Below, piece after piece: positions 37,079-60,765 of a DNA stretch of 64,000 nucleotides (position 1 is its first letter; the number at the start of each line of letters is the position of its first letter). The position numbers and the translations under genes are program-made. Location: contig JACTVC010000014.1 of assembly GCA_018417955.1 (NCBI GenBank), forward strand, positions 744,001 through 808,000, read 5' to 3'. Source of the stretch: Laccaria trichodermophora (Eukaryota > Basidiomycota > Agaricomycetes > Agaricales > Hydnangiaceae). The notes under the pieces were generated by a model, which saw only the letters and a program-made list of their open reading frames with translations, did no database searches and was not told the origin of the DNA.

Positions 37079-37086
37079 ATCTTAGG

Positions 37087-38700: not shown

Positions 38701-38825
38701 TTGTTGTTATTATAATATATATATATAAAATTACATGAACAAGGATTGAACCATAGCCTCAGGAGACATTGCGGGAACTGGGAGGAGCAATATTACCACT
38801 GAGCTATACAACCGTTACAAGGGAT
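38701..38825 (-). mobile_element. tRNA-derived SINE head
   Basis: On the minus strand GTTGTATAGCTCAGTGGTAA (A box) and GGTTCAATCC (B box) lie about 40 bp apart, followed by a (TA)n-rich tail towards 38710 and then the GGAATTCC repeats. This is a SINE promoter rather than a tRNA gene, as the stems are incomplete. Confidence 0.7.
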
Positions 38826-39266
38826 AGAACTATCAATTAATATATGTCGTGTTCACATTCACCTTCCCAAACAAGTGTCGGCAAACGCTGACGCATGATT
38901 TGGTGCCATCAATGACCAGGACAACGACAACATGTCAACGACCAGGATGAGGACGACACATCAATGGCAAGCATGAGTGGTGGGACACCATGTGAGTACC
39001 CATCACTGTAGTGTTGCCACAGCTTGGCTAGCCGCAAGCCAGCTCACTGAACCGGCGGCTTTTGCCGGTTCTGGTTTGTGGATCGCTTGAGAGCTGATCA
39101 AATCCGGTTCGGCTCGGCTTAGTCGGTGGCTTTGAACCGGTTATAGCTGGTAAATGTTGCAGCAATTGAAGACTTGCACGTTAAGTAGAATGAAGGTAAA
39201 TGTGTGATAGAATTCGAGAAAAATGTACATTGTGATAGCAAGTATATTAAACAAAGAATATCTCTA

Positions 39267-39391
39267 TCAATCCTCGTCATCCTGTCCAACAACGTGAATG
39301 ACCTCATCAATATCTATACCACCCTCTGTAATTTCTGAAGTTAGCTTCCCTAACAAATCCGCTGCATCTTCGTCATCATCTGCGTAGTACT
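39267..39391 (-). pseudogene. hAT transposase, C-terminal tail
   Basis: The minus strand reads an acidic tail (YADDDEDAADLLGKLTSEIT, then IDIDEVIHVV) to a TGA at 39269-39267. It is the missing end of the transposase at 53220-56004: both sides share the target copy TAGTACT, and removing the insert keeps the frame through it (DELKY joined to YADDD). Confidence 0.85.
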
Positions 39392-39679
39392 CACCAGTGG
39401 GAACCAATATTTATGATAAAACAATGGCAATGCCAATGGTCATCTCAAACGAACTGTCACAAAGTTTATGAGAGGCATCTCATTAGGATGTCCTATCTAT
39501 TTCATTCATATAATTGTCAGAACTTTTCATAAAGTATGGGGAAGTTTTGAGATATATTTCATAAGTCTTCCTGCTGATTTCATTGTCAATTTCATAACCC
39601 TTCCATGGCAACTTCATTGTGCTTTCATTAAAACCTAAGGCTCTTTCATTATTAGTGTATGGGTTATTTCATTATTGAT

Positions 39680-40370
39680 CTCATTGGATATTTCATTAAT
39701 ATCTCATGTGATTTCATTGTGCTTTCAATAGATATTTCATTAGAAATGTTGGGGCCTCTCATTGTGATTTTTCATTAATAATTCAGGTGATTTCATTGCA
39801 CTTTCATAACTAATGCTCTGCACTTTCAATAGATATTTCATTAGAAATGTTGGGGTGTCTCATTGTGATTTTTCATTAATAATTCAGGTGATTTCATTGT
39901 GCTTTTCATAACTAATGCCTTGCGCTTTCAATAGATATTTCATTAGAAATGTTGGGGCCTCTCATTGTGATTTTTCATTAATAATTCAGGTGATTTCATT
40001 GTGCTTTCATAACTAATGCCCTGCGCTTTCAATAGATATTTCATTAGAAATGTTGGGCACTCTTATTGTGATTTTTCATTACTATTTCAAGCAATTTCAT
40101 TGCTTTTCATAACTAATGCCCTGCGCTTTCAATAGATATTTCATTAGAAATGTTGGGGCCTTTCATTGTGATTTTTCATTAATAATTCAGGTGATTTCAT
40201 TGCACTTTTCATAATTAATGCCCTGCACTTTCAATAGATATTTCATTAGAAATGTTGGGGCCTCTCATTGCGATATTTCATTAATAATTCAGGCAATTTC
40301 ATTGCACTTTTCATAACTAATGCCCTGCGCTTTCAATAGATATTTCATTCTTATCCCCAGAATATTTCAT
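39680..40370. repeat. Tandem repeats in the foldback arms (left copy)
   Basis: About seven copies of a ~100-bp unit containing TTTCATTAGAAATGTTGGGG, TTTTTCATTAATAATTCAGG and ATAACTAATGCCCTGCGCTT. The right arm carries the complement at about 42600-43290. Nearer the centre (40880-41100 and 41800-42060) a ~43-bp unit with TAGTAGTGTCYGCTTTTT repeats five or six times. Confidence 0.88.
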
Positions 40371-40399
40371 TATATGGATCTCTGGTGCTTTCATTTTAC

Positions 40400-42580
40400 C
40401 TGTCAGGGTCCATCCAATCAGATGTTGACATGATGGTCACATGACCCATTACCCCAAATGGTCAAAAAACAAAAGTTGAAGCCCTGCACTGTAGCTTCCA
40501 GAATCTGTTTGAATTATGTCCTAGAGTGCTCCCATTGTGAAGATATGAGGTTAGAGATTTTTTCCACCCCTGGCTTTTTTTTTTTTTTTTTTTGTGTTTT
40601 TCTCCATAAAAACAACACCAAACAATGAGATTTCAACACATTTAGAGAGCTATGAGAAGGGGCTACAATTATTGTATTGTGGGAAATTTGACCAAAAAAG
40701 GAAGGTGCATACCCAAAAACAAAAACTGACACTGACAGACTACAAAAGATTTCTGGTAGACTACCAAAGTCTGTGATAGACTACAATGTTTACTAACAGA
40801 CTACCAAAGACTACAAAAAGTCAGACATAGACTACAATGTTTACTAATAGACCACAAAAGACTACAACAATTGGATGCAGACTATATAGAAAAGTTTGTG
40901 GTGTTACCTTTTTGGACAAGAAAAGTTAGTAGTGTCTGCTTTTTTAAACTACAAATGTTTGTAATGTCCACTTTTTCAGACTACAGAAGTTAGTAGTGTC
41001 CGCTTTTTTCACTACAAAAGTTAGTAATGTCTGCTTTCTCAGACTACACAATTTAGTAGTGTCTGCTTTTTTAGGCTACAAAAGTTTGTATACTGCTTTT
41101 CTGATATATAGTTTATACAGTTCTTCACTATGAATAGGTTCATGGGAATATGATTTAGATTTGACATTTTACCATTACTACCTCATTGGTTTTGATATCA
41201 TACCCAAGTTTGTCTGTTTTTCACATCAATGGAGGCTGTACTATATTTTCATATTATTAGCTACCATCCTAGCTCTAACAATAGTCAACTTTGAAGTGAG
41301 TTACAATACTGGATGGATGATAAGTTGAGTGGTCCTTGTAGATTTTATGACATTTCACCCCAAAGTCAGGTCATGATAGAAAATGTCAGCCATGTTCCAC
41401 CCTGTCTTCAACATGAATCCTAGATGAAGATTGCCAAAGAGAAGACCAAACTGCCCTCTATCATTAACTCTTGCTACCTGTGATACTTACTGTGATGAGG
41501 GCATAAAAAGTGACAGCTAATCATGATATTTAAAGAGAGGATAGGCTGCACTGGTGTGACAGAATTTATACCTTTGAAATGATAGTCAAAGATGTCTATA
41601 GTCAGACATAAAACATTGGCTGCTCATATGGATAGAAGGTTGACTGATGTCAGAGATGGGATTGTGGGTTCTGAGATGAAAAGAGATGAAAGACAACCTT
41701 GGGCATGATGTCAAAACCAATGATGGAGTAATGATAAGATCCATGCACAGTCAAGGACACTACAAATTATATTTTAGAAAAGCAGTCTACAAACTTTTCT
41801 AGTCTAAAAAAGTGGAAACTACAAAGTGTTGTAATGAAAAAAAGTGGACACTATTGACTGTTGTAATGGAAAAGTGGACACTACTGACTTTTGTAGTCTG
41901 AAAAAGCAGACACTACTAAATTGTGTAGTCTGAGAAAGCAGACATTACTAACTTTTGTAGTGAAAAAAGCGGACACTACTAACTTCTGTAGTCTGAAAAA
42001 GTGGACATTACAAACATTTGTAGTTTAAAAAAGCAGACACTACTAACTTTTCTTGTCCAAAAAGGTAACACCACAAACTTTTCTATATAGTCTGCATCCA
42101 ATTGTTGTAGTCTTTTGTGGTCTATTAGTAAACATTGTAGTCTATGTCTGACTTTTTGTAGTCTTTGGTAGTCTGTTAGTAAACATTGTAGTCTATCACA
42201 GACTTTGGTAGTCTACCAGAAATCTTTTGTAGTCTGTCAGTGTCAGTTTTTGTTTTTGGGTATGCACCTTCCTTTTTTGGTCAAATTTCCCACAATACAA
42301 TAATTGTAGCCCCTTCTCATAGCTCTCTAAATGTGTTGAAATCTCATTGTTTGGTGTTGTTTTTATGGAGAAAAACACAAAAAAAAAAAAAAAAAAAGCC
42401 AGGGGTGGAAAAAATCTCTAACCTCATATCTTCACAATGGGAGCACTCTAGGACATAATTCAAACAGATTCTGGAAGCTACAGTGCAGGGCTTCAACTTT
42501 TGTTTTTTGACCATTTGGGGTAATGGGTCATGTGACCATCATGTCAACATCTGATTGGATGGACCCTGACAGGTAAAATG
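40400..42580. repeat. Core of the palindrome, no gene
   Basis: Mirror-image frames at 40514-40732 and 42240-42458 are identical in translation because the arms are complementary. A T run of about 20 (40567-40592) and its A-run mirror (42378-42400) border them. No coding evidence. Confidence 0.85.
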
Positions 42581-43701
42581 AAAGCACCAGAGATCCATAT
42601 AATGAAATATTCTGGGGATAAGAATGAAATATCTATTGAAAGCGCAGGGCATTAGTTATGAAAAGTGCAATGAAATTGCCTGAATTATTAATGAAATATC
42701 GCAATGAGAGGCCCCAACATTTCTAATGAAATATCTATTGAAAGTGCAGGGCATTAATTATGAAAAGTGCAATGAAATCACCTGAATTATTAATGAAAAA
42801 TCACAATGAAAGGCCCCAACATTTCTAATGAAATATCTATTGAAAGCGCAGGGCATTAGTTATGAAAAGCAATGAAATTGCTTGAAATAGTAATGAAAAA
42901 TCACAATAAGAGTGCCCAACATTTCTAATGAAATATCTATTGAAAGCGCAGGGCATTAGTTATGAAAGCACAATGAAATCACCTGAATTATTAATGAAAA
43001 ATCACAATGAGAGGCCCCAACATTTCTAATGAAATATCTATTGAAAGCGCAAGGCATTAGTTATGAAAAGCACAATGAAATCACCTGAATTATTAATGAA
43101 AAATCACAATGAGACACCCCAACATTTCTAATGAAATATCTATTGAAAGTGCAGAGCATTAGTTATGAAAGTGCAATGAAATCACCTGAATTATTAATGA
43201 AAAATCACAATGAGAGGCCCCAACATTTCTAATGAAATATCTATTGAAAGCACAATGAAATCACATGAGATATTAATGAAATATCCAATGAAAGTGTTGG
43301 GTATTTAAAGCTGATTCCGAAAACCTTGTCACTACGCGATTTTTCGCAACACATCAGCAATATAATATATGAGTGATATATGAGCTGAGTAACCAGGGAC
43401 AGGGCTAAATCGGCGATTTCGAAGATTTCAGATCGATTACTAATCTAATCAAATGTTGCGGGGAAATAGTATTTTCAACTTTTATCATAGGGGGAAATAG
43501 CTTGAAGATACAATCTTGGTACCTACGGAATCCCTTCAATTTACTCTACCTTATCATGCAAAAATCCAGAGCACCGGTCATTTCTGACTTGCAATATGGT
43601 AGAAAGTGAAGCTTGTCACACATGTCACGCCGCTGTCGGATGGATCAGATAACATTGAACATCTGCTCATTTCCTCTCCCCTCTAGTGCCACACTTCAGC
43701 T

Positions 43702-44821
43702 ATGGTGTTTCGGCACATTAGTCAAGATCTAAAGGAGCGCGTTCTGTGGCTCCTTGAAAATGACTTCATTCCTGATGATGTTGCAGACATATTTGGTGTT
43801 TCATGACGCAGCATCTACCGTTGGCAGGCAAATGTCGAAAATTATGGCAACGTCATCCGCCCTCGTAATCCTCTACAGGGTCGCCCACGCACGCTCAATG
43901 CTGATCAGACTCATGATCTCTTCACCTTACTGGACGACGCACCTGAAATGTATCTTGATGAGATTCAGGAATGGGTGGCCATTACCCAAGATCTGTCAAT
44001 CTCGAAAACAGCGCTACACATCCTCATCCGGGATGCTGGAGTCACATATAAAGTTCTTCATAAGGCTGCATCTGAACGTGATGAGGAGGCTTGGGAGAGG
44101 TTTCGTGATTTTGCAAGGAATCACCTTGTTGCTTCAATGATTATTACAGTTGATGAATCCAGCAAAGATGATCGGACCATTTTTCGTAGACGTGGGCGGG
44201 CTCCTAGTGGGCATCGAGCAGAAATTGATGCAGATTTTGTTCGTGGAGAAAGATACAGTATCCTGGCTGCGATGGCGGTGGAAGGATTTGTTGGAACGAG
44301 GGTTGTTGCAGGCTCCGTTGATTCAGATGAGTTCTTTGATTTTATTGTTGAGGATATTGTTTGTATCTCTTTCACACTAATCGATTGGTTATCCACTCAC
44401 AGTTTTTTTGTTATAGCTCCCACAAATGAACCCATACCCACAGGATCATAGTGTTCTGATCCTTGATAATTGTGCAATTCACAAAAGCGCATTGCTGCGA
44501 GAAATGGTTGAAGCAAAAAGTAAGCTCCATTGCTGCTTGACGGAACTCATAATTTATTGCCTGTAGACTGTCGCTTGATTTTCCTGCCCGCTTATTCACC
44601 CGATATGAACCCCATTGAGGAGAGCTTCAGTTCAAGTACACTTTTTCTCCCTCTTCCAGACCTGCCATTGCTGATTATCATTCACAGTCAAAGCTTGGAT
44701 TCGTCGGCACTGGCGCCGGATGATGAATAGTGAGCACCCAGAGCTTGACTTGCTGGAGGCTTGTGGTCATGTAACTGCCGAGATGGCAAGAGGATGGTTT
44801 GCACACTCTGGCTATGTATAA
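43702..44821 (+). pseudogene. Tc1/mariner DDE transposase with one nonsense codon
   Basis: ATG at 43702 (MVFRHISQDLKERVLWLLEN). Helix-turn-helix DNA-binding region: DDVADIFGVS then RSIYRWQANVENYG. GRPRTLN linker. DDE domain: first Asp in ASMIITVDESSKDDRT, second in VLILDNCAIHKSALLREM, third acidic residue in FLPAYSPDMNPIEESFSS. C-terminus IRRHWRRMMNSEHPELDLLE, ending GWFAHSGYV at about 44821. Introns at about 44360-44417, 44520-44567 and 44636-44690 splice in frame. A single TGA at 43804-43806 interrupts the helix-turn-helix at a place where CGA (Arg) would fit. No other defect seen. Confidence 0.9.
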
Positions 44822-45013
44822 CTCGCAATCCATCCAGACATCATACAGCGAAAGAGAATTTATTAGAATAGAAAGAATGTTCCACTAATTATATGGCTGT
44901 CACTCTATCTACAAATATAACACACAGAGGGGAATAAGCAAGTTATGGGAGGGAGGAGCCATTTACGTGAGGTGAAAAGTCAAAAAGCAGATGGGAAAGG
45001 GAGGAAACAAAAC
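44822..45013. other. Convergent 3' ends
   Basis: AT-rich spacer between the stop of the transposase and that of the proline-rich gene; no gene. Confidence 0.5.
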
Positions 45014-45427
45014 CTAGTTACCATCGAGCAAGAACTTCTTATACTTACTATATGCTTTGATAATGCGATTGACTGCGAGTGGGCGGATAGAAGCATGCTC
45101 CCACTGGGAATCCTTCAAAGCTGAGAGATCGTCGCCAATCTCAAAGCCCATCTCAGTTAGCGAGTCACAGATGGACGCTGGAAAATTATACTTCATGCAA
45201 AATTCCTCGACTGAGCCCCCAGGTATGGGAGGAGAGGATCTCCCATCACCAGATTGGTGTCGAGAACCATGTGGTGGTGAGGAGTTTCCATGTCGGTGAC
45301 GAGAGGGAGAGGGCAATGAGTGGGGAGGTCCATGACCAAAGTATGGTGGATAACCAGGAGGATAGCCATAGTGTGGATGTGATATAGGATTGGAAGGGAA
45401 TGCCCAGAGGCCATAGTCAAACAGTGG
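45014..45427 (-). pseudogene. Proline-rich/SAM-like protein, C-terminal part
   Basis: The minus strand reads FDYGLWAFPSN, a Pro/Tyr/Gly stretch (GYPPGYPPYFGHGPPHSLPS), then a folded end: VEEFCMKYNFPASICDSLTE, MGFEIGDDLSALKDSQW, IRPLAVNRIIKAYSKYKKFL, stop at 45014. The end resembles a SAM-type helical bundle (short helices, a GF.. turn, a basic last helix). It is split from its N-terminal part (50904-52790) by the LTR-type element; joining across the CAGTGG target keeps the frame (PPPAPL then FDYGL). I know similar Pro-rich/SAM-tail hypothetical proteins from agaricomycetes but no function. Confidence 0.65.
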
Positions 45428-45688
45428 TATATAGCTAGATTTGGATATCTTACATAATATATTGATCTTTTGTCTTGAACCACCATCTTGTCAGCAGTCT
45501 TGCCATCCTCTTGCACTACATGTAGTGCTTTGTATATCTGTACTTCCTACAGTATGCATAATCATGTTGGGCCAGCTGAGTATCTTGTAACTGCTCATTG
45601 CTCACTCATGGGTGTTGATCCCAGATCCACCCATTCTTGCCTCCTCCTTCCCTCTTGGCTTCAGCTATGCGAGAAGTTCAGAGTGAAC

Positions 45689-46489
45689 CAAGGGGGTGGC
45701 GGAACATGGATCCCAAACACTGGCTGGGAGGGGGGGGGATCCTGCCGAAGGCCGAAAAAAAAATAGTGACCTGATCGATTTTTGTCGCAAATTGAGCCTG
45801 AGCATCAGCCAATTGTCTGTTCTTCTTTCCTGAATGTGACTTACCACCTTAGCGCTTCATACCTCGTACTACTCCTGACTCCACCTTCAATGCCCTCATA
45901 CACCATCAACGATGACGCCAGCCAGGTAATTCCGACATCTGCAATTGTGAAGAAAGTGTAGGCCGTCAGAACGCCCATTGAGGCCAGTGACTCGACGTGT
46001 AAATGATGAGGCGAGGGGCGATGGAACCTTTTTTCTCATTAAGTACTCGCAGCATCTAGGCCGAATTTGAGGCTCCAAACAAGCTTCTGAAGCTTGTTCA
46101 AGGTCAATTTGAGGCTCTTGATGGCGAAAGCGTTGACAAAACCTCTTGATACACCATGAATGAATTTTTCTACGTGACAATTTTGCAAGTAAATACGCTG
46201 TTAACAGTCTGGGAAACTCACTGCGTTTGCTCAGGTATGTTCCTCCGTGAAAACCAGAGTATCTTCAATTGTTATTTGAAAGTCACGGCCCGGGTTTGTG
46301 AGTTCTCGGTTTAGGTACGGTGCAGGATTTTTGAAATGCCGGATCGTGGGACAAAATAACATTTAATAAAACATCGGAACTTGGAAAACATACCTTATAT
46401 AGTAAGAGGTGGAGGGGGGGAGGTCAGCCAAATCCCCGAGAAAAAAATAGGGAGTGTTGGTACATTTTCCATGTTCCGCCACCCCCTTG
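45689..46489. mobile_element. MITE with 8-bp TSD inside the left LTR
   Basis: 801 bp with inverted ends CAAGGGGGTGGCGGAACATG and complement, flanked by GAGTGAAC at 45681-45688 and 46490-46497. The right LTR shows the uninterrupted sequence GAGTGAACGCTTCA, which proves the insertion point. No coding frame. Confidence 0.93.
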
Positions 46490-46524
46490 GAGTGAACGCT
46501 TCACAATGGTGGGGGCACCGCGGA

Positions 46525-48400
46525 CTTCACCAAAGCATGGTTGAAGTCTGCATTTCTTGGTAGAGGGAGAGCTGGAGAGTTGTGGGAATGCGCCAGCTCA
46601 TCACAGGAGGAACCTTAGCATGGATGGTAGCTGCTGCTCGCGCACTTCGCGGCGGGCTTACTACTTCATGTGAAAGGGCTCATCCATCCTTCAGTTGGAT
46701 GAACCATTGACTTTAGCTTGTGCTTGCACAGCTGGTTGAGGTTTGTTCGATTGGGTTGCTGCGCTGACTCTGAGCAGCTGGGCTTTGGGATTTCGCGACT
46801 ACGCGGCCTGAAGTCTACTGTGAGGAGAGTTCCTACTCACCTATGTCTGGATTCCGCGACTACGCGACCATTGACTTGGTGAGGAGGTTGCCCACAACCA
46901 GTGTCGCCTGCTGCTTTGCGCTGCTTCACTGTCTCTCAGACTCCACCTGTTCCTCAACCATCTCCCTTGTCTTTTAGCATCTAGGCCTCTCAAGAACAGC
47001 CAGATGTTCATTGACATCCCTCCAGTTCAGTCTACTGCTCTGGAAATTATGTGCTATGCCCTACTATGCTTCTCTCCCAATCTTTGCTGTTTTCCTGCTT
47101 GAGGAATGAGTGTTCTCATCCTCCTTACTTCTCTATGAGCTCCCTGGAATGGCTCTTCTTGGTTTCTGAATGGTTAGAAGGATTTGGAGTGGTTTTGGGT
47201 TGGATGGGGTCATCAGCAAACCGGTGAATTCCTTATATGACCTTTTATTTCTCACGAGATATTTGTCAGATGATGGCAGATCACAATTCCTCACAATCCG
47301 TCGCAATCCTTGTGTGCTCCTCGCGAGGATACATGCAGATTACTCCAGTCTCGTAGCTGGATAAAATTATATATATATCATTTTTTACAATTATGAGATA
47401 GTGTAATGGGGAAAAGCATTCCCATATCATAGTCTTCTCAGCTCTTGACGAACGCAAACACTTCTGGACCATATCGCAAGTAACCGAGAGATGAAACTTG
47501 AATAAAACCGACGTCACCAATGGGTGTTGTGACTTTGGGTGTCGGAAGAGTGTCATGTGACCATCGGATACGTTCGGCTGAGGTCAGAACATCATGCCAT
47601 GTGACTGATGTTGAACTTCGCTAGTTTGAATTTCGGGACTTTGTCTTCGTAACCACCACCCACTTCCCCACCATCGCTCCCTGAGTCTGCACATACACCC
47701 GCTCACCGATGTTGGCCACATCCGTGAGTTGGTGTATGTGCTGCTCTAGTCTGGCCTTATGCTCTCGTTACAGTGAGTCATGCGTTTGCGTGGTCAAAGC
47801 CCCTTCAATTTAACGGATTTCATCTAGAATTATGATGAGTTGGCATGCGCCTCCACTCCGTCAGTCCTCCTGCTCGGATTAAGCGGGTTCGCCACTTATC
47901 CATCATCTTCTCTGCTCCCCCCATCGGCTCATGACGGACCCTCAGAATACACGATGGATCTTATGTGTTCTGGGGGTCAGTGGGTAACTTTGCCTCCTGT
48001 TCAGCCGTCTTTCTCCCTGTTCCCCTTTTCCTTAGCTCAGGCATTCTATAGTAGCTTGTAGTCCTTCATTCTTGTACCCTGTAGCTGTAATACATATGTT
48101 TCAATCCTACAAACCATAATTGAAAGGAATGGACAGTCTAAAATGTGAGAAAATCCCTCAAAAGCTATCAAAATGGATCACAACGTCACAAAAGAATGTA
48201 TAGCAGCATGATATTGTGAAATCTTGCTTTATATTGTGAGAGATTGTCTAGAAGCGCAGCGATGATGAGGCCTCATCAGACGTTGTGAGGAGGGTCAAAA
48301 TCTTATAGTAAATTGTGATGATTTCAGCAAATTGTGATCAATTTCGTACCTTATGATGGATCATCGTATTTCCCATGATTTGCTGATGGTTGATGGGACA
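46525..48400. other. Interior of the LTR-type element, no gene
   Basis: Contains blocks with CGCGACTACGCG-like motifs (46795-46880) and AT-rich stretches. No polymerase motif in any frame. Confidence 0.5.
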
Positions 48401-48410
48401 TCAACATGGG

Positions 48411-49690
48411 ACTTATTCATGTTATATCTCGCCAACCGATGCCCCGATTGCTCTCGTCTCTTTTGCGCTGGGAGGCCCTCGTTCATACCTTTCTTTGGAC
48501 CCCCTGAACTCGCCAAACGGTCGCGTATTGGCTGCGCTTCACCTACTTCAGCCTGGTATGACCAAAATGAACATATCTCGTCCGTTCTCGGCGAGATCCT
48601 CGTCGTTCCTTTTGTTCTTTGGCTCGTTTTGAAGCCACGGTCAATGCGCTTCTGGGAAGCCCTCATACGCGTCAAACGGACGAGCGGATCCTGTGTTACA
48701 GCACCATCCCTCCAACAACCACTTACATGTGACTTGTTCATGTCGTATCTCGCCAACCGATGCCCCGATTGCGCTCATCCTTTTTGCGTTGGAAATCCCT
48801 CATTCACACCTTTCTGTGGACTCCCTGAACTCGCCAAACGGTCGCCTATTGGCGGTGCTTCGCCTAGTTCAGCCTGGTATGACCAAGATGAGCATGTTTC
48901 ATTCATTCTCGGCGAGATCTTCGTCGTCCCTTTCGTTCTTTGGTCCGTTTTAAAGCCGCGGTCAATGCGCTTCTGGGAAGCCCTCATACGCGTCAAACGG
49001 ACGAGCGGTTCTCATGTCACAGCACCATCCCTCCAACAACCATTTGCATGTGACTTGTTCATGTCATATCTCGCCAACCGATGCCCCGATTGCGCTCATC
49101 CTTTTTGCGTTGGAAAGCCCTTATTCACACCTTTCTGTGGACTCCATGAACTCGCCAAACGGTCACCTATTGGCGGTGCTTCGCCTAGTTCAGCCTGGTA
49201 TGACCAAGATGAGCATGTTTCATCCATTCTCGGCGAGATCTTCGTCGTCCCTTTCGTTCTTTGGTTCGTTTTAAAGCCACGGTCAATGCGCTTCTGGGAA
49301 GCCCTCATACGCGTCAAACGGACGAGCGGTTCTCGTGTCACAGCACCATCCCTCCAACAACCATTTGCATGTGACTTGTTCATGTCATATCTCGCCGACC
49401 AACACCCCGATTGCTCTCGTCTCTTTTGCGCTGGGAAGCTCTCGTTCATACCTTTCTTTGGACCCCATGAACTCGCCAAACGGTCACATATTTGGCTGCG
49501 CTTCGCCTAGTTCAGCCTGGCATGGCCAAAATGAACATATTCGTCCGTTCTCGACGAGATCCTCGTCGTTCCTTATGTTCTTTGGCTTGTTTTGAAGCCA
49601 CGGTCAATGCGATCTTCTGGGAAGCCCTTATACGCGCCAAACGGACGAGCGGTCCTTGTGTTACAGTGCCATCTCTTCAACAACCATTTC
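48411..49690. repeat. 321-bp tandem repeat, four copies
   Basis: Four units starting near 48411, 48732, 49053 and 49374 with cores CTCGCCAACCGATGCCCCGA and AGCCTGGTATGACCAAGATG. The unit is a multiple of three, so a 385-codon frame stays open on the + strand (48353-49510) and shorter ones stay open on the minus strand. The last copy has a frame-breaking difference near 49490. I treat it as a repeat, not a gene. Confidence 0.88.
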
Positions 49691-50059
49691 CCCCTTCCTA
49701 TTGTCATAACCTGCTCGCATCGGACGCTCTATAGCCGTTTGAAACGCCTGAATCGTACCTTTCCGACGCACCTATTCATGTCGATAACGGACAACAGCCT
49801 GGTCTGCAGTATGGCATTTACTCCAGAAACTGCAGTTTCTGGGTATTACCTCTCTATCTCGACAACCACGGCTCGTCACGATACGCGAATTATACCGTTG
49901 GAAAGGCGTCGTTCGTAGCTTTGAACGGGTATTTGATCCCAGGAACGGGCCAGAAATCACTACACTATGCTCAAACACATTTTTGGCTACCCCCAGGATC
50001 TCCCCTATTTGGGGTGTTAAGACTTGATTGGAGGACTCTTATGGACAGGGGAAACACCT

Positions 50060-50460
50060 CAACTGGTTGAGAGTTGCTGCTCGCGCATTACGCGGCGGAC
50101 TCTTCTTCAGTCATGGTAACCTTCTGGCTCTCTCAGAAGGCTGATTGCTGCTTGTGCATTTCGCAGCAGATCAGTGTGGAGGAGTTGCAGCTCGCGCATT
50201 ACGCGCGGACTCTTCTTCATCATGGTAACCTTTCTGAGTCCCCAGAAGTACTGATTGCTGCTCGCGTGTTTACGTGGCGGATCATGTTGTGAGGAGTTGC
50301 AGCTCGCGCATTACGCGGTGGACTCTTCTTCAATCATGGTAACCTTCTGGCTCCTGATTGCAGCTCGCATGTTTTGCAGCGGATCAGTGTTGAGGAGTTG
50401 CTGCGCACATTATGCGGCGGACTCTTCTTCAATCATGGTAACCTTATAGATTGCTGCTTG
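50060..50460. repeat. ~120-bp tandem repeat, about four copies
   Basis: Units contain GAGGAGTTGCAGCTCGCGCA, TTACGCGGCGGACTCTTCTT and CAATCATGGTAAC. Frames across it are by-products. A T run (about 22) follows at 50508-50530. Confidence 0.85.
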
Positions 50461-50903
50461 TGTGTTGCATGGCCTGTGTCCACTCTGGGGGGCAAGATTT
50501 ATGACAACATTTTTTTTTTTTTTTTTTTTCTCCCCCTTTCCTTCAACCTCTTATCATTCCTACCCAACTGGTACCACCTCTACCTACTCTGACACCAACT
50601 TAGGATCACGGCTTGTAATTTTCCACTGCACAGTGGTATATAGCTAGATTTGGATATCTTACATAATATATTGATCTTTTGTCTTGAACCACCATCTTGT
50701 CAGCAGTCTTGCCATCCTCTTGCACTACATGTAGTGCTTTGTATATCTGTACTTCCTACAGTATGCATAATCATGTTGGGCCAGCTGAGTATCTTGTAAC
50801 TGCTCATTGCTCACTCATGGGTGTTGATCCCAGATCCACCCATTCTTGCCTCCTCCTTCCCTCTTGGCTTCAGCTATGCGAGAAGTTCAGAGTGAACGCT
50901 TCA

Positions 50904-52790
50904 CAGTGGAGCTGGAGGTGGCATCGGGAAAGGGTAAGGATAGGGCATTGGAGGTTGAGTGTATGGATATGGGAACATGTGGGGATGAGGAGCAGAAGGA
51001 GTGATAGAGGAGTGAGAATCAGGTGGAGATATGGGAGTAGATGGGCCTGCTACTGGGGTCTTTGGAACCTTCATGCCTTTCTTTGCAAAGTGATTTGAGG
51101 CTAGAGGGGGACACATGAGTGAAGCGTCCCTTTCCGCTACATGAATATGAGTCAATAAACATGTGTTTAATTAAGTAATCATTGACGACGCACAATGTGA
51201 GCAGCCCACGCAACCTTGGTTATCCGCGTAAGCTCAAAATGGCAATCCGTTGGGCGGTGGTGGAAGCACTCGACATCGGGGTGGACAACACAAGTACCAG
51301 CTGGGTACTTCGCTTCGATTTGCTGAACCAAGTCATCTACCTGGTCGTCGAACTGAGGCTGGCACAGTTAATGAAAATGTCAGCTTCAAAATAAACTTAA
51401 CTTACTTTTTTTCGAGGAAGACCATCGTCGACATCAGACAGGCTATCCTCCTCAACAGGAGCAGCTCCCCGAGTTGGAGGAATTCCAGGGCTGTTGCAGG
51501 ATTAGATTGTGCAAAGCGTTGAACATGGGCAACTCACCTTGGTCCGATCAACTGGTTTCTTAACAGGTTCATCCATGCGAACAATAATGTAACTACCTGA
51601 GACATTCTTCGGAGGAGCCTTGAGCTGCTTTATCATTGAAACATAGGCTAATCGGGAACGCAGAGGCAAGAACATAGAGTTGGCTGCTTAACCCAGCGCC
51701 ACTCCATGCTGTCAACAAAAAGGAAAGTTGGTCCGTCTCGAGAACATCAGCAATAACCTCCAAAAAAGACTCCCACTCCATACCAACATCAGCCAGCCCA
51801 GGCCGAGACCATGGGGGTCCACCCTGGCAGCAGGCTTCTTAGTGCGACCAGCGCCGGCAGGCCTTTCGAGTTGGTTTGTGACAGGCCAAACCATGATCTC
51901 GTACTCGGGGCAGGCGGTTTCAATGGTGTTGTCCTCGACTGGTGCAAGAGGTTGAGAAGGAAGAGGTGCGCGAGGCGTTGATGTTCGCGTTGTTGGGGTA
52001 ATGACACGCGGCGCTGTTGTGATCTCGTACTCGGCAGGCGGGGTTTCAATGGTGTTGTCCTCGACTGGTGCAAGAGGTTGAGAAGGAAGAGGTGCGCGAG
52101 GCGTTGATGTTCGCGTTGTTGGGGTAATGACACGCGGCGCTGTTGTTCGAGTCCGCTTTGGTTGAGGTGTTGGCGTGGGGGGACCAATCGGGGTTGTTGG
52201 GATGGGTATACGTTCCCGAGAGGGAATGGTGGGTATCTGAGAGGTGACAGTGTGTCCGTGTGAACGAACGATGGGGCGTCAAAAGGATTGGGCGCTTCAC
52301 GCAAAGGAATGATGGGCGTGCTGGAGCGGATGATGGGAGTCGAGGACCGAGGGGGAATAATGGGTATATGGGAAGGGACTGTGTGTGTGTGTGAAGGAAT
52401 GATGGGCATTTCAAAAGTAGAGCGCGCTTCGTGCAAAGGAATGACAGGTGTTGAGGGACGAGAAAGACTGGAATAGGGAGTGTGGGGTGTGTGAACTGGT
52501 GCGATTGGGCGGCCTGGAAGTCTTTTAGCGCTATAACGGCTGGAGAGAAGAAACCGACTCACCAAAAATTTGAACTTCCATCTCACTTACGGATGGTGAA
52601 GGAGGCTCCACAATCTCCACCTCGTCACCTTGAGTTGGTGGAAAATAGAAAGGTGGTGGCGGCGATGCACGGCTATATGCAGGAGGAGGAGTCCCAGGAG
52701 GAACACGAGGAAACATACGAGAAATACGGTCAAGTCGGAAAGGGGGAGGATAACGCATATGGAGTACTTGATGCAAATAAATGCGGAAGT
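50904..52790 (-). pseudogene. Proline-rich/SAM-like protein, N-terminal part (second mariner gene)
   Basis: Exon-like minus-strand frames follow each other: MRYPPPFRLDRISRMFPRVP and GDEVEIVEPPSPSVSEMEV (52.78-52.55 kb), a Pro/Thr/His-rich region (52.53-51.9 kb), YIIVRMDEPVKKPVDRTKV (about 51.6-51.5 kb), GAAPVEEDSLSDVDDGLP (about 51.45 kb), VEEALDECFHHR-type frames near 51.27 kb, then PHPHMFPYPYTQPPMPYPYP and FPMPPPAPL (50.99-50.91 kb). An in-frame direct duplication of 126 bp (42 codons) occurs at 51895-52146. The start is not certain. Function unknown; the repeated Pro-rich segments and SAM-like end suggest a scaffold or DNA/protein-binding accessory. Confidence 0.55.
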
Positions 52791-53219
52791 ACTCACAGAT
52801 CGGGAAGAACCCTGGCGTGGACCTGATTACTCAGCTAATATATCACTCATATATTATATTGCTGATGTGTTGCGAAAAATCGCGTAGTGACAAGGTTTTC
52901 GGAATCAGCTGTAAATGAAATTGCCAATGAGATCAATAATGAAATAACCCATACACTAATAATGAAAGAGCCTTAGGTTTTAATGAAAGCACAATGAAGT
53001 TGCCATGGAAGGGTTATGAAATTGACAATGAAATCAGCAGGAAGACTTATGAAATATATCTCAAAACTTCCCCATACTTTATGAAAAGTTCTGACAATTA
53101 TATGAATGAAATAGATAGGACATCCTAATGAGATGCCTCTCATAAACTTTGTGACAGTTCGTTTGAGATGACCATTGGCATTGCCATTGATTAATCATAA
53201 AAAGTGGTAGCCACCAGTC

Positions 53220-56004
53220 TAGTACTTGAGTTCGTCTTCTGTGACAGCCCATCCCTCCGTAAAAGTTTAGCCATTGCTGCTTAAGCAAAAATTTCAGCAT
53301 TTGAAGTGCCTCCATTAGAACAGGGTGGATTCGATTTGCCTCTTTGTATCAGTTTCAGCACTGGATGAAAAAATGCGCTTGGAAGGAACCGAGGATGCTT
53401 GAATGGGCAAATAATCTAATGCCATCGCGTATAATATTGGATGAGTTTTCTCGCCTATCTGCAAACAAATCAGTGACGCAAATAGGAAAATACTGAGACA
53501 TTGTACTCACCACCCAAAACCCTACAATATCTGTGCCATGCAGTGAGAGCGGCCCATTTTCGTACGACTCAAACTGTTCTTCAACTCCTTGGACCTGCTG
53601 CGAAGAAGCACCCGAAACGTCCATCATATCTTCGAGCCCATATTGTCCAGCTAAATCATGCCAGCTTCGCCTCTGTTGCTGCAAGGCCACTGTACCAGGT
53701 ATAGGTTGTTGAACTTGTCCATGAAGACGGTCATGGTATTTTCGCATCTGCAACAAGTATGTTAGTGTACTGTCACCATGACGAACTGAGACACTTACAG
53801 TATTCTTTATAATTACAGTAGCCCTGGCAACGTAATTAGGCTCCCAGTGTTGTCGAATCCATGATAATCGTATTGAGGGATTGAGAACTGATGATGTCAA
53901 GTTATTAAACGATCTATGAATTTGAACCTTGACTCACACATGGCAATAACGTAGGCAGGCGAATCATCCATTTTCTTGTAGTAAGTTGTCGCCCAGTCAA
54001 TGCCAATATCCGTCCACCAGGCCAAGCAAGGGTGTTCTCTCCCAAGTTGCTCCCATGCCGTCATGAACATTTCGAATGCGGGAATTGCGCCTGATAAAAC
54101 AGGAGTCTGCTCTTTCGACATGATTTTCTGCACTTGATGGGGTACCTAAGAAAAAGACTTAGCCTCGAACAGGTATCAATATTAGAGACATACACCCAGC
54201 ATGATCTCAAAATCCTGGAGTACAGTCCACTCCATATCAGTAAGTTTAAGTTTCGCAAGCTCTCTATTGACAGGCAAAGAAAGAAAATACTCGACAGCCT
54301 ATTTTTATAAGTATACACCGATAGAATGATGAAGTTCAAACATACTGGGTGTAGATTACAAAACTGATTGATCATGAAGTAAAGAGAGTCCCACTAAACC
54401 TTCATGTCACGTATAAGTTGTGCCTGCTTAACCTGTATAGTCATGGTCGGATCCCTGGTCGACTTGAACCACCCTTTCTTGTTTCCATCCTCTATTACTT
54501 CTGCCAGGTGGTCACGTCGTTGACCTGAGGCGCATACTGCTCATACGGTACTCCGGCACAATGCAATTGGGTCACGAGCAACCGCTTCTTCGTAGCTCTG
54601 ATTATCGGGATCGCTTGGAGGGCCTGATACAGATGCGACAAATCCCCCTGTATCATCTACCAGGGTGATATCAGTAAATGCATCAATGACGTGATTTGAA
54701 CATATGTTGGTGACATGTGGGAAGCATCTTATATGATTTTCCTTGTGATTAAACTCAACGTCGCGAGGGTGTAAAAGTAACTCAAGTTCTCTGAGGAAAG
54801 CATTGTTGAGTGAGCAGTTATCAAGAGTCCAATGGCCTCCCTGTGCACGTAAGCATAAAGTAGAAAAGGGAAAGAAAATTTAGACGTGCCTTGACTGTGA
54901 TCCCAACTCGATCCAAGAGATGGAGGACAACCCTGGCTAGCCTCTTCCCGTTGTGGCTTCCCCGAAGACGGTGAAATGCGATGAGTGTAGAATGCAACCG
55001 AAGACCCCTGGTAGACTTGTCTCTATGTATCCAATGTGCGGTAATGGCCAGGTATGGGTACCGAGCTTTTGTTGACCAGATATCCGCTGTGTAGGAAATG
55101 TGTCCTGGCGCATCCTAGAGCGATCAGTGAATACAAGGAAACAAAGCAGTCAATCGAAACAACATACTGCTAATTCCTGTTTTAGGACCTTGAAATACAC
55201 ATGCCATGCCTTGATAATGGATTCGCGCATCTTCATTCGGCAGGGAATGTCTTTGTCCTCGAGGTCCTCATGTAAAAGCAAGAGGAGCTGTCGAAATTCT
55301 GGGCATTCAACAACATTTATAGACTATGAACAAGGTCAGGCTAATATCGAACATTAAAAGTGCTTTACCAACCTGATCATCTGCAACGATGAAATTCAGA
55401 AGATGTTGTATCAATGCCTCCTGGGAAAATGGCAGACATTGTGTTCCATGTCCGGGGGGCGCAGGGGCTGTTCCAGTTTCGCTCGCGAGTGCAGGGACTT
55501 TCCATCTTGTTTCACGACACTTCTGGAGATATATATCCTTGTGGCAGCTTAGGAGGTGGCTGCGCAATGGACCATTTGAGGTGCTCGCTGAGAAGCTGCC
55601 TACACCCTGGTGCAAGTCTATCCCATTCACCCTACATAACAATCCTTGTCAGTACAATGTATAAAATTATGGAGGATCACGTACTTGCATAGCTTACATA
55701 GAGTTCTGCTTACTGGAGGCGCCTTGGATCTGTGTTCAAAGAAAAAATCAATATCTGGGGCTGTTCGGCTCTGTGAGGGTTCTGAGGCTTGCTCAGAAGG
55801 CGTGACAGGTCTGGTGGAGGCAGCAGAGCCAGCTACAGGCTCGACACTCGCAGGAGAGATTGGTCATTGTACGTGCTGTACATCTTCATCGGTAGAATGT
55901 TCGTCCAAGCGAGTGAAGTCGAATTCTTCTCCAGAACCGGTATCTTTATGAAAGTTGACTGGCGCTGGCTGCTGTGTCAGTTTCTTGACTCTACCTCAGG
56001 CCAT
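53220..56004 (-). pseudogene. hAT transposase, main part
   Basis: ATG at 56004 (MA, then TGA, then GRVKKLTQQPAP). A BED-type zinc finger: LCKLCK, an intron, then GPLRSHLLSCHKDIY. RNase-H-like core: ADIWSTKARYPYLAITAHWI (first Asp), GHWTLDNCSLNNAFLREL (second Asp), HIRCFPHVTNICSNHV. Then PAFEMFMTAWEQLGREHPCL, WWTDIGIDWATTYYKKMDDS and RQHWEPNYVARATVIIKNT. hATC dimerisation region: FWVVSTMSQYFPI, THPILYAMALDYLPIQASSV, RIFSSSAETDTKR and MEALQMLKFLLKQQWLNF. Defects: TGA at 55998-55996 and 55866-55864 (both where CGA would fit), a one-base shift near 53310 after AETDTKR, and loss of the last ~40 residues to the foldback insertion (see 39267-39391). Confidence 0.9.
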
Positions 56005-56599
56005 TACGGGAGCTGGGTGAATTACAGGGATAGAGATATTGTTTGGTATTTTATACAGAACCATAGCACCTCAATGCCGTTAGTGCATGTTTCTATTGTA
56101 ATTAATGTAACAGTTGATTCAATTGATGTCTAATTGAATGTCTCATCTACTAAGGCGTTACAGATAACTAACTTGAGGCTTTACAGCCTAAAATGTCGAA
56201 CATAATTAGAATAAGACAAGTACAACTCTCGATCAGGGAGTGGTTGATGAGTAGCTTTATCCAGCTCAGCAGGGTCCTTGACGTTATTGATGAAATCCTT
56301 TACACAAATGTTAAACACCACAGAAATAATTTGAGGAATGATCGACGTACTGAATCTATCATCCTCCAATCCTCCACCCACATTGTCGTCGCATTGTCCA
56401 CACCAGCCTCAATTGAGAAACATGTAAAGGGCACGAGGAATCTGCCAAGAAAGCAAAATTAACACGAGGTTAATAGCAATGAGTAAGGCTGACCTTTATT
56501 CATAATGAAGAATGCAGGAGAAGGCTTCTTCGGCGTGATCGATAGAGATCATAGAGTATTCCAATGCCATACCAATGCTTTGGGTCCACGGATGAATGC

Positions 56600-56745
56600 G
56601 CATTATCCACCAGGCATCGTGCATCCAGGCACATTATCCATCACATATCTGGGCGTGTCACCCATCGCGTGTCCGGGTGCATTATCCATCGTGTGTCCAG
56701 ACGCATTGATAATTGTGTGTTCAGGCACATCATGTATCTGACCGC
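56600..56745. repeat. Degenerate ~30-bp minisatellite
   Basis: About five copies of GCATTATCCATCGTGTGTCC variants; the + frame therefore reads a 10-residue period (PGALSIVCPD and similar). Not a gene. Confidence 0.75.
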
Positions 56746-56940
56746 GTTTCTCTATCCATCGTGTATCCACACACACTAACTGGGATGTTCTATTACAGCT
56801 TGTACTTCTTTTCACGGCTATTCAAACACTATTTACTGGGCGTAGCTACAGCGTATCTATTGAGACATAACTACTACAACGTATTTAAGGTGGAAGGAGG
56901 GATGAGGAAAGGAAAAGAAAAGAAAAGCGAACAACGTTCC

Positions 56941-57118
56941 AGCACTATATATCCCAGGCACTTTAGGGCCGCTTTTGATTTAGGGCAGGCATGGAACGTT
57001 AAGGGCAGGCATAGAAACATTCTTCTACACCTGCCCTTAACGTTTCATGCCTGCCCTCAACATTCTATGCCTGCCCTAAATCAAAAGCAGCCCTAAAGTG
57101 CCTGGGATATATAGTGCT
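56941..57118. mobile_element. Short foldback MITE
   Basis: Inverted ends AGCACTATATATCCCAGGCA and complement enclose inverted copies of TTTAGGGCAGGCATGRAACG. 178 bp. No clear target duplication. Confidence 0.7.
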
Positions 57119-57686
57119 TCAGTGTCCTTCGCATTTCTTTTCCTTTCTTCTCCACTCCCCCAACCCTCGCCATATGTAGTAAACCCTAGATAGCCCATCC
57201 TGTATGTAGACCCCCCTGCCATATGTAAACCCCGTCGTATGTACGACTTCTCGTATGTAGGACGTGTTACGTTCATATAATAAATTGTTGTACTAATATA
57301 ATTAAAATGCGTCATGACAAATACAAAACACAATAAGTCCCCCTTCCCATTTATTATGTGTAGAATATAGTCATTCATTACAACAAGGATAACAGGTACA
57401 CCTTCAATGCGTATCTCATTGTAACTAAACTAATAACTTTCTTTATTCAGCAATGGAATGCTGCCATGGCTGTCCCTTTCGGTGAACAGCGGTGCCCACG
57501 TGATGGAAAGCAACTGGCCCTAAAGTCAACGAAACATAAACAGCCCACAAACCATTTCTAGCTTCTTTCCCATCTTCGTGCAACATCCGTGTAGTTTGTA
57601 GAGTATATAGCTTTTAGAAATGTTTGTGCATGCTAGTAAATGAATTCTAGATGACTCTAATGTAATATAAATACCAGGAAATCGTC

Positions 57687-60220
57687 ATGGAAGCAGAATA
57701 CACTAAGAGACCAACGAAACATAGAAAACTCGAGGCAAGTTCTCTTTATTGTTGTGAGATTTCTTAGCAAGCTAATCACACAATAGATGCCGCAAGCTCT
57801 TCAATTCTTAGATCTCGAAGCTGAAGTATCAGAGGCGGAAACTGATGATGAGAATGACAGCAACAAAGGTGTGTATCATACATTGTAATGATAGTACACT
57901 TCTAATTCTTTTCAAGGTGATCTTATCGACGACAATGAAGACATTGATGAGTCGATCTCAGGAGATGCGCACCGCAACCTTCTTCGCGAAGCGTTGATGC
58001 CATCCAATGACGACACATTTTGGGAAAGCTTTCTCGAGCGCGTCACGTCTCATCAATGTATTGCAGAAGAAGACGTTCAAGATATTGGAAAGGCGTCTTT
58101 ATGTATGGTGCTTGTCAAGGTAACACTAATCTAATCTTTGAAGCTCATGTTTGTAATGACTTTCTACTTAGCCTGGATATGAGGAGTGGATAGTCTGTCG
58201 AATCCATCAGCAGATCATGGACCCTAGGTTTCCTGCTCGATTTCGACCCCCAGTGGTCTTCAGCTGGAAAGCTCTACCTGGTAGAGTGTTTTTCGAAGGT
58301 GGTTCGGAGGAAATGATTCGACAAGTCTGTAATGGCATACCCAACATGATGCTCTTGAAGACTTTCCACATACCCAATCCCAACCCCTCCATCTTCAATG
58401 TTCCGGATACCTTTCGGCCAAAGCCTCATTCATGGGTTCGACTGCACCGTGGGATCTACAAAGGAGATCTTGCCTTCATTCGGGAGGTTCACCCCTATCC
58501 CACCTTACTCATCAACCTCCTTGTGGTACCACACATCGATTATGACCCACCTGCTGCCAAAGTCAAAGGAAGCCGGCTTATCACATATGAGGAAAGAAAT
58601 GATGAGACAGACAACGAGTTTGCAGCGACCTACAAGCCCGATCGCGAGCTAAATAGAAGGGCTTCAGCACCAGGGCGGCCTCGCCAAGCCCTCTTCAATC
58701 CAATGTTGGCGAAGCAACGGTTTCATTGGGCCTTTCAACAGCGCAACAGCTTGTCTTTATTCTGCGGAGTATTGTATGATGCTGACAGATATGCATATTT
58801 CTCGGAAGTCGACACAGATTGGTACACCGCAGAAGATGTAGTACCAACATCGAGGGAATTCGAACTTTTTAGCGCCTGCTTGGACATTCCTCTTAACATC
58901 CGACAGCACACAATGGCAAGAATGTCAGCCAGGATAGGTGATGGGGTGAAAATCACTCACGGAGATTCGAGGGGGCTTTTTGGAATGATTGAGGATATAA
59001 CGGAAAACAAAGCCATTGTCTCTTTAACGATGGAGGATGTAACAACTACCGTACCCTTTTTGTCCCTTTGAAAAGATCTCAAAGTAGGGGACAAAGTCCG
59101 CATTCTTTCGGGAGACCACGAGGGTGTTATGGGTTGGGTAGTGAATGGAGACGACGACTATGTGTGCATCTTTAATGACAGGACCAGTACAGAGGTAAAT
59201 GTCTTGCTTTTTATTATATTATACTTCTTCTAACATTCTGTCATCCTTTAGATAGAGGTATCTCTGGGGATTGTCCAGTTCTTCACCTCCCCCTTTGTCT
59301 TCGGAACAGAGTCCTCGGATTTAAAAGCTCCCTTCACAGATGCACAAAAGCGTGTCATGAAGGGGGACTCCAATAGTCATCTTGTAGGAAAACAAGTAAT
59401 GGTCACCAAGGGGGATTTTAGAGGTTACCGAGGCAGAATAAAAAGCACGGTTGGTGAAAAAAGGGTCTTCGTTGAGCTCGAGGCACACCTCCAAAGCCCA
59501 CAAGTTTTTGACATCAGTTCTCTATGCATCATGCAAGTCCCTTATCTTATTTTTTGAAATCGATGCTAATCAACTTCCAGCACTGACGAAAAGCTTCAGG
59601 CCCCCAGGCCTTGAGAGGTTCTCACCGATTTTACTTACCCACTTGAACCAGCACCTCTGCCTGGTACTCTGGCAGGCTTTTTGTTCCCTGGTTACCCCTT
59701 GCCAGATCCACAACTCTCAGTCACATATCCTGCTCCTTTCCTTCCACAGACTCTGGCCAACACAGGGTCATCTACTCCGCTTCCTAACTCGGAAGATATC
59801 CCGATGACCCCAGCTTGGAACCCAAGCTCACAAACCCCCCGCCGTGGTGATGATGGTAATTATGTTTCTGATTCTGATTCAAAATCAATAGATACTGACG
59901 CAATTGTGGCAGCCTCTTCTCCATATTGGCTCAAAGACAGCTGCTTTGCCAACATGAGACTGAGCCTTCATCTCATCAATACCAACCCTAATTTTCAAAA
60001 TGGCCAGCATGAAGATAAGTGCGGGGAGTTCAAGGGAGTTGTCGGAGATGCGGTCAAGGTTCAACTCGGTTACAAAGTGGTTGAAGTGCCATTTCCATAC
60101 TTAATACCTGAACAGCTGGAGTGCAAAGGCCAAGTCGTTACTGCATTTGACGGCCACATAGGGGGACACAGTTTAGGATTAAGGAGTTTGGTGAAGAGGT
60201 CTGCAGCTGCTCAATTTTGA
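57687..60220 (+). pseudogene. Spt5-like NGN/KOW protein, cargo of the hAT element
   Basis: ATG at 57687 (MEAEYTKRPTKHRKLE), a GC-AG intron, then an acidic N-terminus (VSEAETDDENDSNKGDLIDD) as in Spt5. NGN-like domain about residues 110-200 (CMVLVKPGYEEWIVCRIHQQ, LPGRVFFEGGSEEMIRQVCN). Several KOW modules: SWVRLHRGIYKGDLAFI, IGDGVKITHGDSRGLFGMIE, LKVGDKVRILSGDHEGVMGW, VGKQVMVTKGDFRGYRGRIK and EFKGVVGDAVKVQLGYKVVE. A Pro/Ser/Asp-rich linker (about 59.65-59.92 kb) precedes the last one. Spt5 binds RNA polymerase II and RNA during elongation. Two in-frame TGA codons (59069-59071 before KDLKVGD, 59612-59614 before EVLTDF) stand where CGA would fit. A second GC-AG intron at about 59533-59580 is likely. 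It is probably a host-derived copy captured by the element, not the essential host Spt5. Confidence 0.8.
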
Positions 60221-60614
60221 AATCAACAACGCTTTTGAGAAAGGTTGATGTCAAAATTGCCACCAATCTACTGGTAGTGACCCAAGACACCCAGCGATAA
60301 AATATCTTAGATAAAATTTAACTACCTTAGGGAGACTTTTCTTGTCCATTTTATGCATATCTCAATGGCAAGGCATATGCTATTGACCTTAATGCAAGAC
60401 CCGTGAGTTTTGAGATGACTGAATGAATGAACTTAGACAATCACTATTTATGACTGGCTTAGCCAGCTCCCAGCCGGCTTCTTAGCCGGAGCTGGAATTA
60501 GCTGAGCTGTGGGAGTCATCACTCGGCAGTTCTGGCTGGGCTTCGGCTAAACTCGGCTCAGCTCCTGGCTTCAGCCGACTTTGAGCCGGAGCCGCGGCAA
60601 CACTACATCACTGT

Positions 60615-60765
60615 CTCCCCCTCCATCACACCACAGCACTCCCTCCCTCCCTCCCTCCATCACTCCCTCCCCCCTCACTCCCTCCCTCCATTACTCCCTC
60701 CCTCCATTACTCCCTCCCCCCCCTCCATCACTCCACTGGCTCCCTCTCCCTCACTCACTCCCCAC
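60615..60765. repeat. (CTCC)n microsatellite
   Basis: Long CTCCCTCCCTCC runs with CATCACTCC interruptions directly right of the hAT target site; the long + frame here is compositional. Confidence 0.85.

Follow-up and report, generated by a model that had tools for sequence, protein, structure and literature searches.

How did five mobile elements come to lie one inside another at a single locus of Laccaria trichodermophora, in which order did they arrive, and what do they carry? The stretch in question, referred to here as the window, comprises 64,000 nucleotides of contig JACTVC010000014.1 (C6:744001-808000, in a genome of 59 Mb and 77 contigs), and the closest named proteins to its genes are those of Laccaria bicolor. 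In a preliminary description, made from the letters of the window, it was proposed that a hAT element contains a foldback element, which contains a Tc1/mariner element, which contains a long terminal repeat (LTR) element, which in turn contains a miniature inverted-repeat transposable element (MITE), each with its own target duplication. With a probability of roughly 0.95, the locus consists of six stacked repeats: the hAT, the foldback, the Tc1/mariner, the LTR element and the MITE inserted successively within an older dispersed repeat. What had been observed was partly confirmed, and the interpretation given to it was supported. What would surprise a specialist is the hAT family itself, which bears an SPT5-like gene.

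Results

A search for empty sites in other genomes had been put forward as one way to check the proposal. Such sites were found at all five junctions, as paralogues within the same genome, in agreement with five nested insertions that began with the hAT and ended with the MITE. The target duplications of the hAT, foldback, mariner and MITE stand where they had been placed, but that of the LTR element is GTGGA and not CAGTGG; the depth of five insertions was likewise upheld, but two further elements had been missed, namely a sixth layer that surrounds the hAT and a second guest of the LTR element. From the outermost insertion to the innermost the duplications measure 8, 7, 2, 5 and 8 bp, and every one of them directly adjoins its element end; random pairs of k-mers from the window match by chance at a rate of about 8e-5 for 8-mers and 1.5e-4 for 7-mers (see Table 1 for coordinates).

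When the two host flanks of the hAT are joined, they match in one piece at C6:820807-821211 (95%), C1:1935448-1935850 (90%) and C67:972719-973157 (79%). In L090 and L091, the two of these three empty-site copies that were read, the joined flanks are reproduced letter for letter over 61 bases with one CATCACTG, the sequence that borders the hAT on both sides as had been described; the 8-bp length was read at the window copy and at these two empty sites. Since the joined flanks are continuous in other copies, the hAT sits inside an older repeat. The left part of that repeat recurs at more than 30 places among the matches listed, and its two closest paralogues carry 879 and 856 additional bases near 38911 that are absent from the window copy. 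We regard it as the sixth layer (layer 0), a dispersed repeat with inverted ends, a description that does not imply mobility. Layer 1 has the 8-bp duplication, the TAGTGTTGCC terminal inverted repeats at both ends and the transposase over the profile cut-off that are expected of the hAT superfamily, and relatives of its transposase are found in Laccaria bicolor. A hAT copy on C21 (7.8 kb, 88%) lacks the foldback and all inner layers.

Foldback elements are known for their long inverted arms, and layer 2 has, besides the inner arms, outer arms of 311 nt that are 96% complementary. Its termini read CACCAGTGG on the left and CCACCAGTC on the right, the first 25 or so bases differing between the two in the same way across copies. 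The proposed insertion at TAGTACT was borne out by 15 of the 19 loci with a hAT left end, which run uninterrupted through the site (TAGTACT is unchanged in nine and carries substitutions in six); two others are the nest itself, in the window and in its second version on contig C74, and two are fragments that stop short of the site. The hAT transposase frame was also found to be open once the flanks are joined, as had been claimed. Exact 7-bp duplications were present in eight of the ten foldback left-right end pairs obtainable, counting the nest and its C74 copy, and further loci yielded single ends only.

Two foldback relatives of 10.5 kb on C34 have 7-bp duplications and each contain a KDZ domain (PF18758, at C34:2821792 and C34:2588826), and the whole-genome profile search gave no KDZ domain inside the window foldback among the matches listed. 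It was by this search alone that KDZ was placed, and C-terminal-looking frames in L077 and L085 had no Pfam match. The family shares a KDZ domain and a 7-bp duplication with Kyakuja, but the foldback lacks the CA..TG termini without inverted repeats that are given for Kyakuja in the available part of PMC12730594. Because of its long inverted arms and the absence of CA..TG ends, we describe it as KDZ-related and do not file it as Kyakuja; a KDZ-type transposase supplied by the 10.5-kb relatives would be the likely means of its mobilisation. Two side observations concern this family. At L077 (C34:2581125) a 10.5-kb KDZ-type element starts where an open frame with a similar C-terminal appearance ends, which may be a case of further nesting, and at L074 (in the area of C15:379057) a foldback copy adjoins an SPT5-like-looking frame, C15:377318 being among the weak SPT5-like matches.

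Layer 3 has the TA duplication and inverted ends (43303-43397 and 52822-52916, 97% alike) of a Tc1/mariner element. Its insertion at TA was confirmed by 14 of 30 foldback arm loci, from seven elements, which are continuous through the site; the others comprise two that are the nest's own left arm, where 33 bases are missing, two of the interrupted arm and 12 that are too diverged for a judgement. In L060 and L067 the 90 bases compared are identical to the joined arms, and four other loci have an 11-base insertion nearby. The mariner transposase remnant gave profile matches to DDE_3 (4.5e-5) and HTH_33 (8e-4), both below the cut-off. The second, proline-rich gene of the element is also found inside mariner copies on C77 (1234051-1237998), C34 (2185582-2189446) and C67, and the pieces of it that were tested had no Pfam match over the cut-off.

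The LTR element is the one layer whose border had to be moved. It was previously placed at CAGTGG, a motif that is present at 45422-45427 and 50904-50909, and it was noted that the reading frame of the proline-rich gene is restored when these two places are joined. The frame is indeed open there, but it is equally open when the flanks are joined at GTGGA, as the two joins differ by 51 bases, so that the frame does not discriminate between them. Three solo LTRs (L003, L004 and L006) start with TGTGATATAGG, end with CTTCACA, measure 319 bp and are flanked by 5-bp duplications (AGCCC, GGATA and GCTAG); their borders reach 44 bases further left than CAGTGG and set the start of the window LTR at 45378 and its duplication as GTGGA. 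In addition, the empty site L089, a C77 mariner copy without the LTR element, consists of the left flank, one GTGGA and the right flank, with 71 identical bases; the 50 bases that had been assigned to the gene are absent from it. The joined flanks match in one piece on C77 (98%), the contig of L089, and on C67 (84%) and C34 (83%). CAGTGG is therefore rejected as a target duplication on the evidence of L089 and the solo LTR ends: it is LTR sequence 44 bases inside the element, which resembled a border because precisely the first 44 bases are missing from the window 3' LTR. That an LTR-type unit inserted at CAGTGG, in spite of the motif at both places and the open frame, has next to no likelihood. 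A truncated repeat can thus yield a convincing false target duplication together with a matching open frame.

With these borders the element has TG..CA repeats of 319 bp and a duplication within the 4-6 bp expected of LTR elements, the three solo LTRs having 5 bp each. A TGG-containing stretch resembling a primer binding site (PBS) follows the first LTR, and a GGGGGG tract precedes the 3' LTR in L001 and L005 and is absent in the window. C74 retains the 44 missing bases and 624 more of the internal 3' end, including the GGGGGG tract. The window 5' LTR and the C74 3' LTR are identical over 319 bp, which indicates that the insertion is young. Of five frames from within the element, including one that belongs to the second guest, none reached the Pfam cut-off or resembled pol, and since no gag or pol match was obtained we describe it as similar to a large retrotransposon derivative (LARD), a non-autonomous element apparently without enzymes of its own, as judged from these frames.

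The MITE had been said to be proved by an intact second LTR. That LTR does have a single GAGTGAAC and no MITE, but in the window it is truncated and not intact. MITE-free LTRs with a single GAGTGAAC include L003-L006 and the 3' LTRs of the nest (L001 and L007). Of 27 MITE copies with both ends, the nest and C74 included, 25 have exact 8-bp duplications (6/8 match in L022 and 3/8 in L026); these copies were drawn from 30 loci, the rest of which lack one end or are duplicate copies. The element is short, present in many copies and has CAAGGGGGTGGCGGAACATG inverted ends and a constant duplication length, as is expected of a MITE; no transposase was found in it, and its 94-aa frame had no Pfam match.

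Beside the MITE, and not within it, lies the second guest of the LTR element, which may be older or younger than the MITE. C74 is without this guest: there L010 shows one GT and matches the joined flanks at all of 80 bases, which makes the second guest the only insertion here whose empty site is found in the locus's second version and suggests a recent transposition at this place. The 1.18 kb absent from C74 was also considered as a difference in the 321-bp tandem array, a candidate that was rejected, the missing piece being the insert 47211-48388. Its ends and duplication agree with those of PlavakaB (CATCA..TGATG, 2-3 bp) in the available part of PMC12730594. Its frame at 47284-47556 had no Pfam match, and no search for Plavaka transposase partners was made elsewhere; we would call it Plavaka-like by its ends and do not file it as PlavakaB.

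Could the stack be an assembly chimera of unrelated repeat copies? The 26 kb contig C74 holds another version of the nest locus, with all five layers in identical order. Every layer junction was sampled on it, and its first 4400 bases are identical to window positions 34615-39014. Exact duplications at five junctions and letter-identical empty sites would also be unexpected in a chimera. What such a reading could draw on is that between 49.8 and 52.3 kb the window and C74 differ by many single-base indels and few substitutions, the other compared stretches being nearly identical, and that the window 3' LTR is truncated, its region having 667 bases fewer than C74. We consider a chimera very improbable, and successive insertion remains by far the better account. 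Several points nevertheless weigh against that account. The mismatch at 49.8-52.3 kb means that one of the two contigs has a poor assembly of part of layer 4, and to judge by the type of differences this is probably a patch of the window assembly that was left unpolished. The empty sites of the five layers are all paralogous, and no allelic one was found. Among the foldback copies, the pair at C56:816937 has no duplication, the C8 pair matches at 6 of 7 positions, and in a C25 copy both ends are of the right type and the flanks are dissimilar. As for C74 itself, it may represent a second nucleus, a different haplotype or merely a redundant contig; that it lacks precisely the second guest favours a genuine second version, such as another haplotype, over a mere assembly duplicate.

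Between the transposase and the right end of the hAT lies the SPT5-like gene, which is divergent. Over the cut-off it matched the profiles KOW5_SPT5 (3.3e-15), KOW2_Spt5 (1.1e-13) and KOW, and it matched solved SPT5 at 1.9e-20 (phmmer), with an alignment that begins at query residue 128, or at residue 6 in 7nky. The NGN profile was not hit in the window copy and is listed for the relatives P0005 and P0009. The predicted fold of one exon, a model of modest confidence (predicted local distance difference test score, pLDDT, 72; predicted template modelling score, pTM, 0.53), had its best matches among SPT5 chains of RNA polymerase II complexes, with a template modelling (TM) score of only 0.3-0.4 for the query. 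Transposase, spacer inverted repeat and SPT5-like gene recur in identical order at eight other loci (C21, C25, C6:39.5k, C8:661k, C38, C1:1.83M, C6:203k and C12:691k), some of which are truncated or interrupted, and at C21 the whole portion to the right of the foldback site is matched without a break beside the left end. The constant order and the C21 copy are difficult to reconcile with host DNA trapped between hAT ends by chance, which we hold to be highly unlikely, even though SPT5-like loci are many and some have no detectable hAT transposase alongside.

The genome has at least 73 SPT5-like matches of all lengths. At least 27 of them have an identity of 66% or higher and span 255 or more of the 299 residues; within that stretch 18 are stop-free and nine have one to four stops. 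In a neutral simulation with the DNA identity given, the protein identity lay above the 99.5th percentile for all 20 copies under a weak transition bias and for 18 of the 20 under a strong one; the copies were taken from the 27 long matches, leaving out the window, C74, three that score like C11 and two partial ones, and the DNA identities are rounded and may count gaps. Protein identity above the neutral range indicates purifying selection on the SPT5-like gene. Against a working gene at this locus stands the window copy itself, which has an in-frame TGA at 59069-59071. The copies on C11, C29, C37 and C73 have an equal score and 66% identity, possibly as a result of one recent spread. The 114-nt inverted repeat of the spacer has a predicted RNA fold that is very stable (z -21).

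The gene block is not confined to one transposase lineage. Seven loci share it without a near-identical transposase. Three of these (C5:1129568, C8:582574 and C23:896318) have an SPT5-like protein with 85-86% identity and a spacer repeat with 79-80% DNA identity at best, whereas the matching hAT transposases (C5:1134764, C8:579590 and C23:902013) are 33-35% identical (E 3e-5 to 1e-3), with two stops each. No transposase match was obtained at the other four (C10:871501, C16:361231, C67:1328545 and C56:284115). The combination of similar SPT5-like gene and spacer with a dissimilar transposase suggests a transfer of the gene, together with its promoter region, from one hAT lineage to another, and the cargo was apparently exchanged in this way, as far as these comparisons of sequence go. 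Inheritance of the gene by both lineages from a common ancestor would account for gene order and orientation being alike in both, and a distant transposase match at just three of the seven loci leaves it some room; but a spacer would not stay that similar for so long while the transposases fell to 33-35%, and we think such descent without exchange improbable, though less so than chance capture.

Two repeats of the window lie outside the nest. At 1-2838 a 71-bp unit is repeated in tandem about 32 times, in an array that decays rightward, and in the A+T-rich region left of the nest a 645-bp stretch (35257-35901) is 90% like its own reverse complement.

Table 1. Features of the nested locus, in window coordinates
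Feature	Position	Strand	Remarks
Layer 0, dispersed repeat with inverted ends, broken by the hAT	38408..61002		inverted ends 38408-38482 and 60926-61002, 81% match; borders approximate
hAT left target duplication CATCACTG	39001..39008		single copy in L090 and L091
hAT right target duplication CATCACTG	60606..60613
Layer 1, hAT element	39009..60605		7762 bp of own sequence without inserts; TAGTGTTGCC ends
hAT transposase exons	53227..56000, 3' tail at 39009-39391	-	approximate; Dimer_Tnp_hAT 1.3e-5, over cut-off
Inverted repeat between the two divergent hAT genes	56899..57160		114-nt arms; recurs at other SPT5-like loci
SPT5-like gene on the hAT	57787..60220	+	approximate exons 57787-57867, 57916-58119, 58172-59194, 59252-59540 and beyond
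Foldback left target duplication TAGTACT	39385..39391
Foldback right target duplication TAGTACT	53220..53226
Layer 2, foldback, KDZ-related family	39392..53219		4222 bp of own sequence
Left inner arm, 1410 nt	39681..41090		100% complementary to 41882-43291
Right inner arm	41882..43291
Layer 3, Tc1/mariner	43308..52911		4071 bp of own sequence; TA duplications 43306-43307 and 52912-52913
Mariner transposase remnant	43700..44820	+	approximate; in-frame stops
Proline-rich second gene of the mariner, split by the LTR element	45014..52776	-	approximate; frame open over joined flanks
LTR element left target duplication GTGGA	45373..45377
LTR element right target duplication GTGGA	50906..50910
Layer 4, LTR element	45378..50905	+	5' LTR 45378-46505, split by the MITE; 3' LTR 50631-50905
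PBS-like TGGTGGGGGCACC	one base past the 5' LTR
MITE left target duplication GAGTGAAC	45681..45688
MITE right target duplication GAGTGAAC	46490..46497
Layer 5, MITE	45689..46489		801 bp; CAAGGGGGTGGCGGAACATG ends
Second guest in the LTR element	47211..48388		1178 bp; ends CATCAGCAAA..TTTGCTGATG; GT at 47209-47210 and 48389-48390

Discussion

Each layer of the nest is the product of an ordinary transposition event that left its own duplication, the older layers belonging to repeat families of which uninterrupted copies survive elsewhere in the genome. The elements were presumably moved by the usual machinery of their own families, and the LTR element and the small elements may have been mobilised by partners located elsewhere. 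The nest is a record, at base resolution, of successive transpositions of different kinds, each of which was checked against an empty copy, and it could serve to calibrate software for resolving nested repeats.

The SPT5-like gene would represent a captured RNA polymerase II elongation factor that was kept because it aids the element, and it is likely that it would do so by helping the transcription of copies that are silenced or packed in chromatin. A role of the hAT cargo in aiding such elements is a prediction, albeit a likely one, drawn from the sequences compared here. The wider proposal, that hATs of this fungus carry a working SPT5-type elongation factor as anti-silencing cargo and trade it, with its hairpin-bearing promoter, between distant transposase lineages, is put forward tentatively, as something that may well prove wrong. 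As the gene is spread over dozens of loci, it is amenable to testing. In the literature searched, most subscription journals being outside its reach, no title or abstract reported SPT5-bearing transposons.

It was described earlier that elements of Laccaria bicolor, with its 60-Mb genome, are tightly nested or clustered and include LTR, LARD, terminal inverted repeat (TIR) and MITE classes (PMC3411680). In this respect the stack belongs to a kind already known, of which it is an unusually clear case. Like the present locus, those described in the survey include nested elements, but the available part of that paper gives no base-level order of layers with empty sites, and its main text does not contain the words hAT or mariner. 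The foldback differs in superfamily from Foldback/Mutator elements such as Tm1 of root-knot nematodes (PMC3169594), as its relatives encode a KDZ transposase.

The capture of a host gene by a fungal hAT also has a precedent. According to the available part of PMC6710886, a hAT of Pseudocercospora fijiensis with 8-bp duplications captured and amplified the host histone H3 gene, and the amplified copies were inactivated by repeat-induced point mutation (RIP). The two systems have in common a fungal hAT, 8-bp duplications and a host gene for a chromatin protein, but here the gene is SPT5-like, the tested exon is open in 18 of the 27 long matches, and the protein identity points to purifying selection.

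A parallel in terms of cargo is provided by the fungal TET/JBP genes, which are carried by hAT7, Kyakuja and Plavaka elements and were passed between transposon lineages (PMC12730594). Neither SPT5 nor KOW occurs in the text of that paper. In the part of it available, Kyakuja of Laccaria bicolor is described as having 7-bp duplications, CA..TG ends and no TIRs, and PlavakaB as having CATCA..TGATG ends and 2-3 bp duplications. Like the elements described there, those of the nest include one with an accessory gene, a foldback with the 7-bp duplication of Kyakuja and a second guest with the ends of PlavakaB. They differ in that the TET/JBP cargo is a dioxygenase, that hAT7 makes 7-bp duplications as against the 8 bp of the present hAT, and that Kyakuja has no TIRs in contrast to the arms of the foldback. 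If the SPT5-like cargo is functional, it would give transposons a route by which to act on the transcription machinery, in parallel to the fungal TET/JBP dioxygenases.

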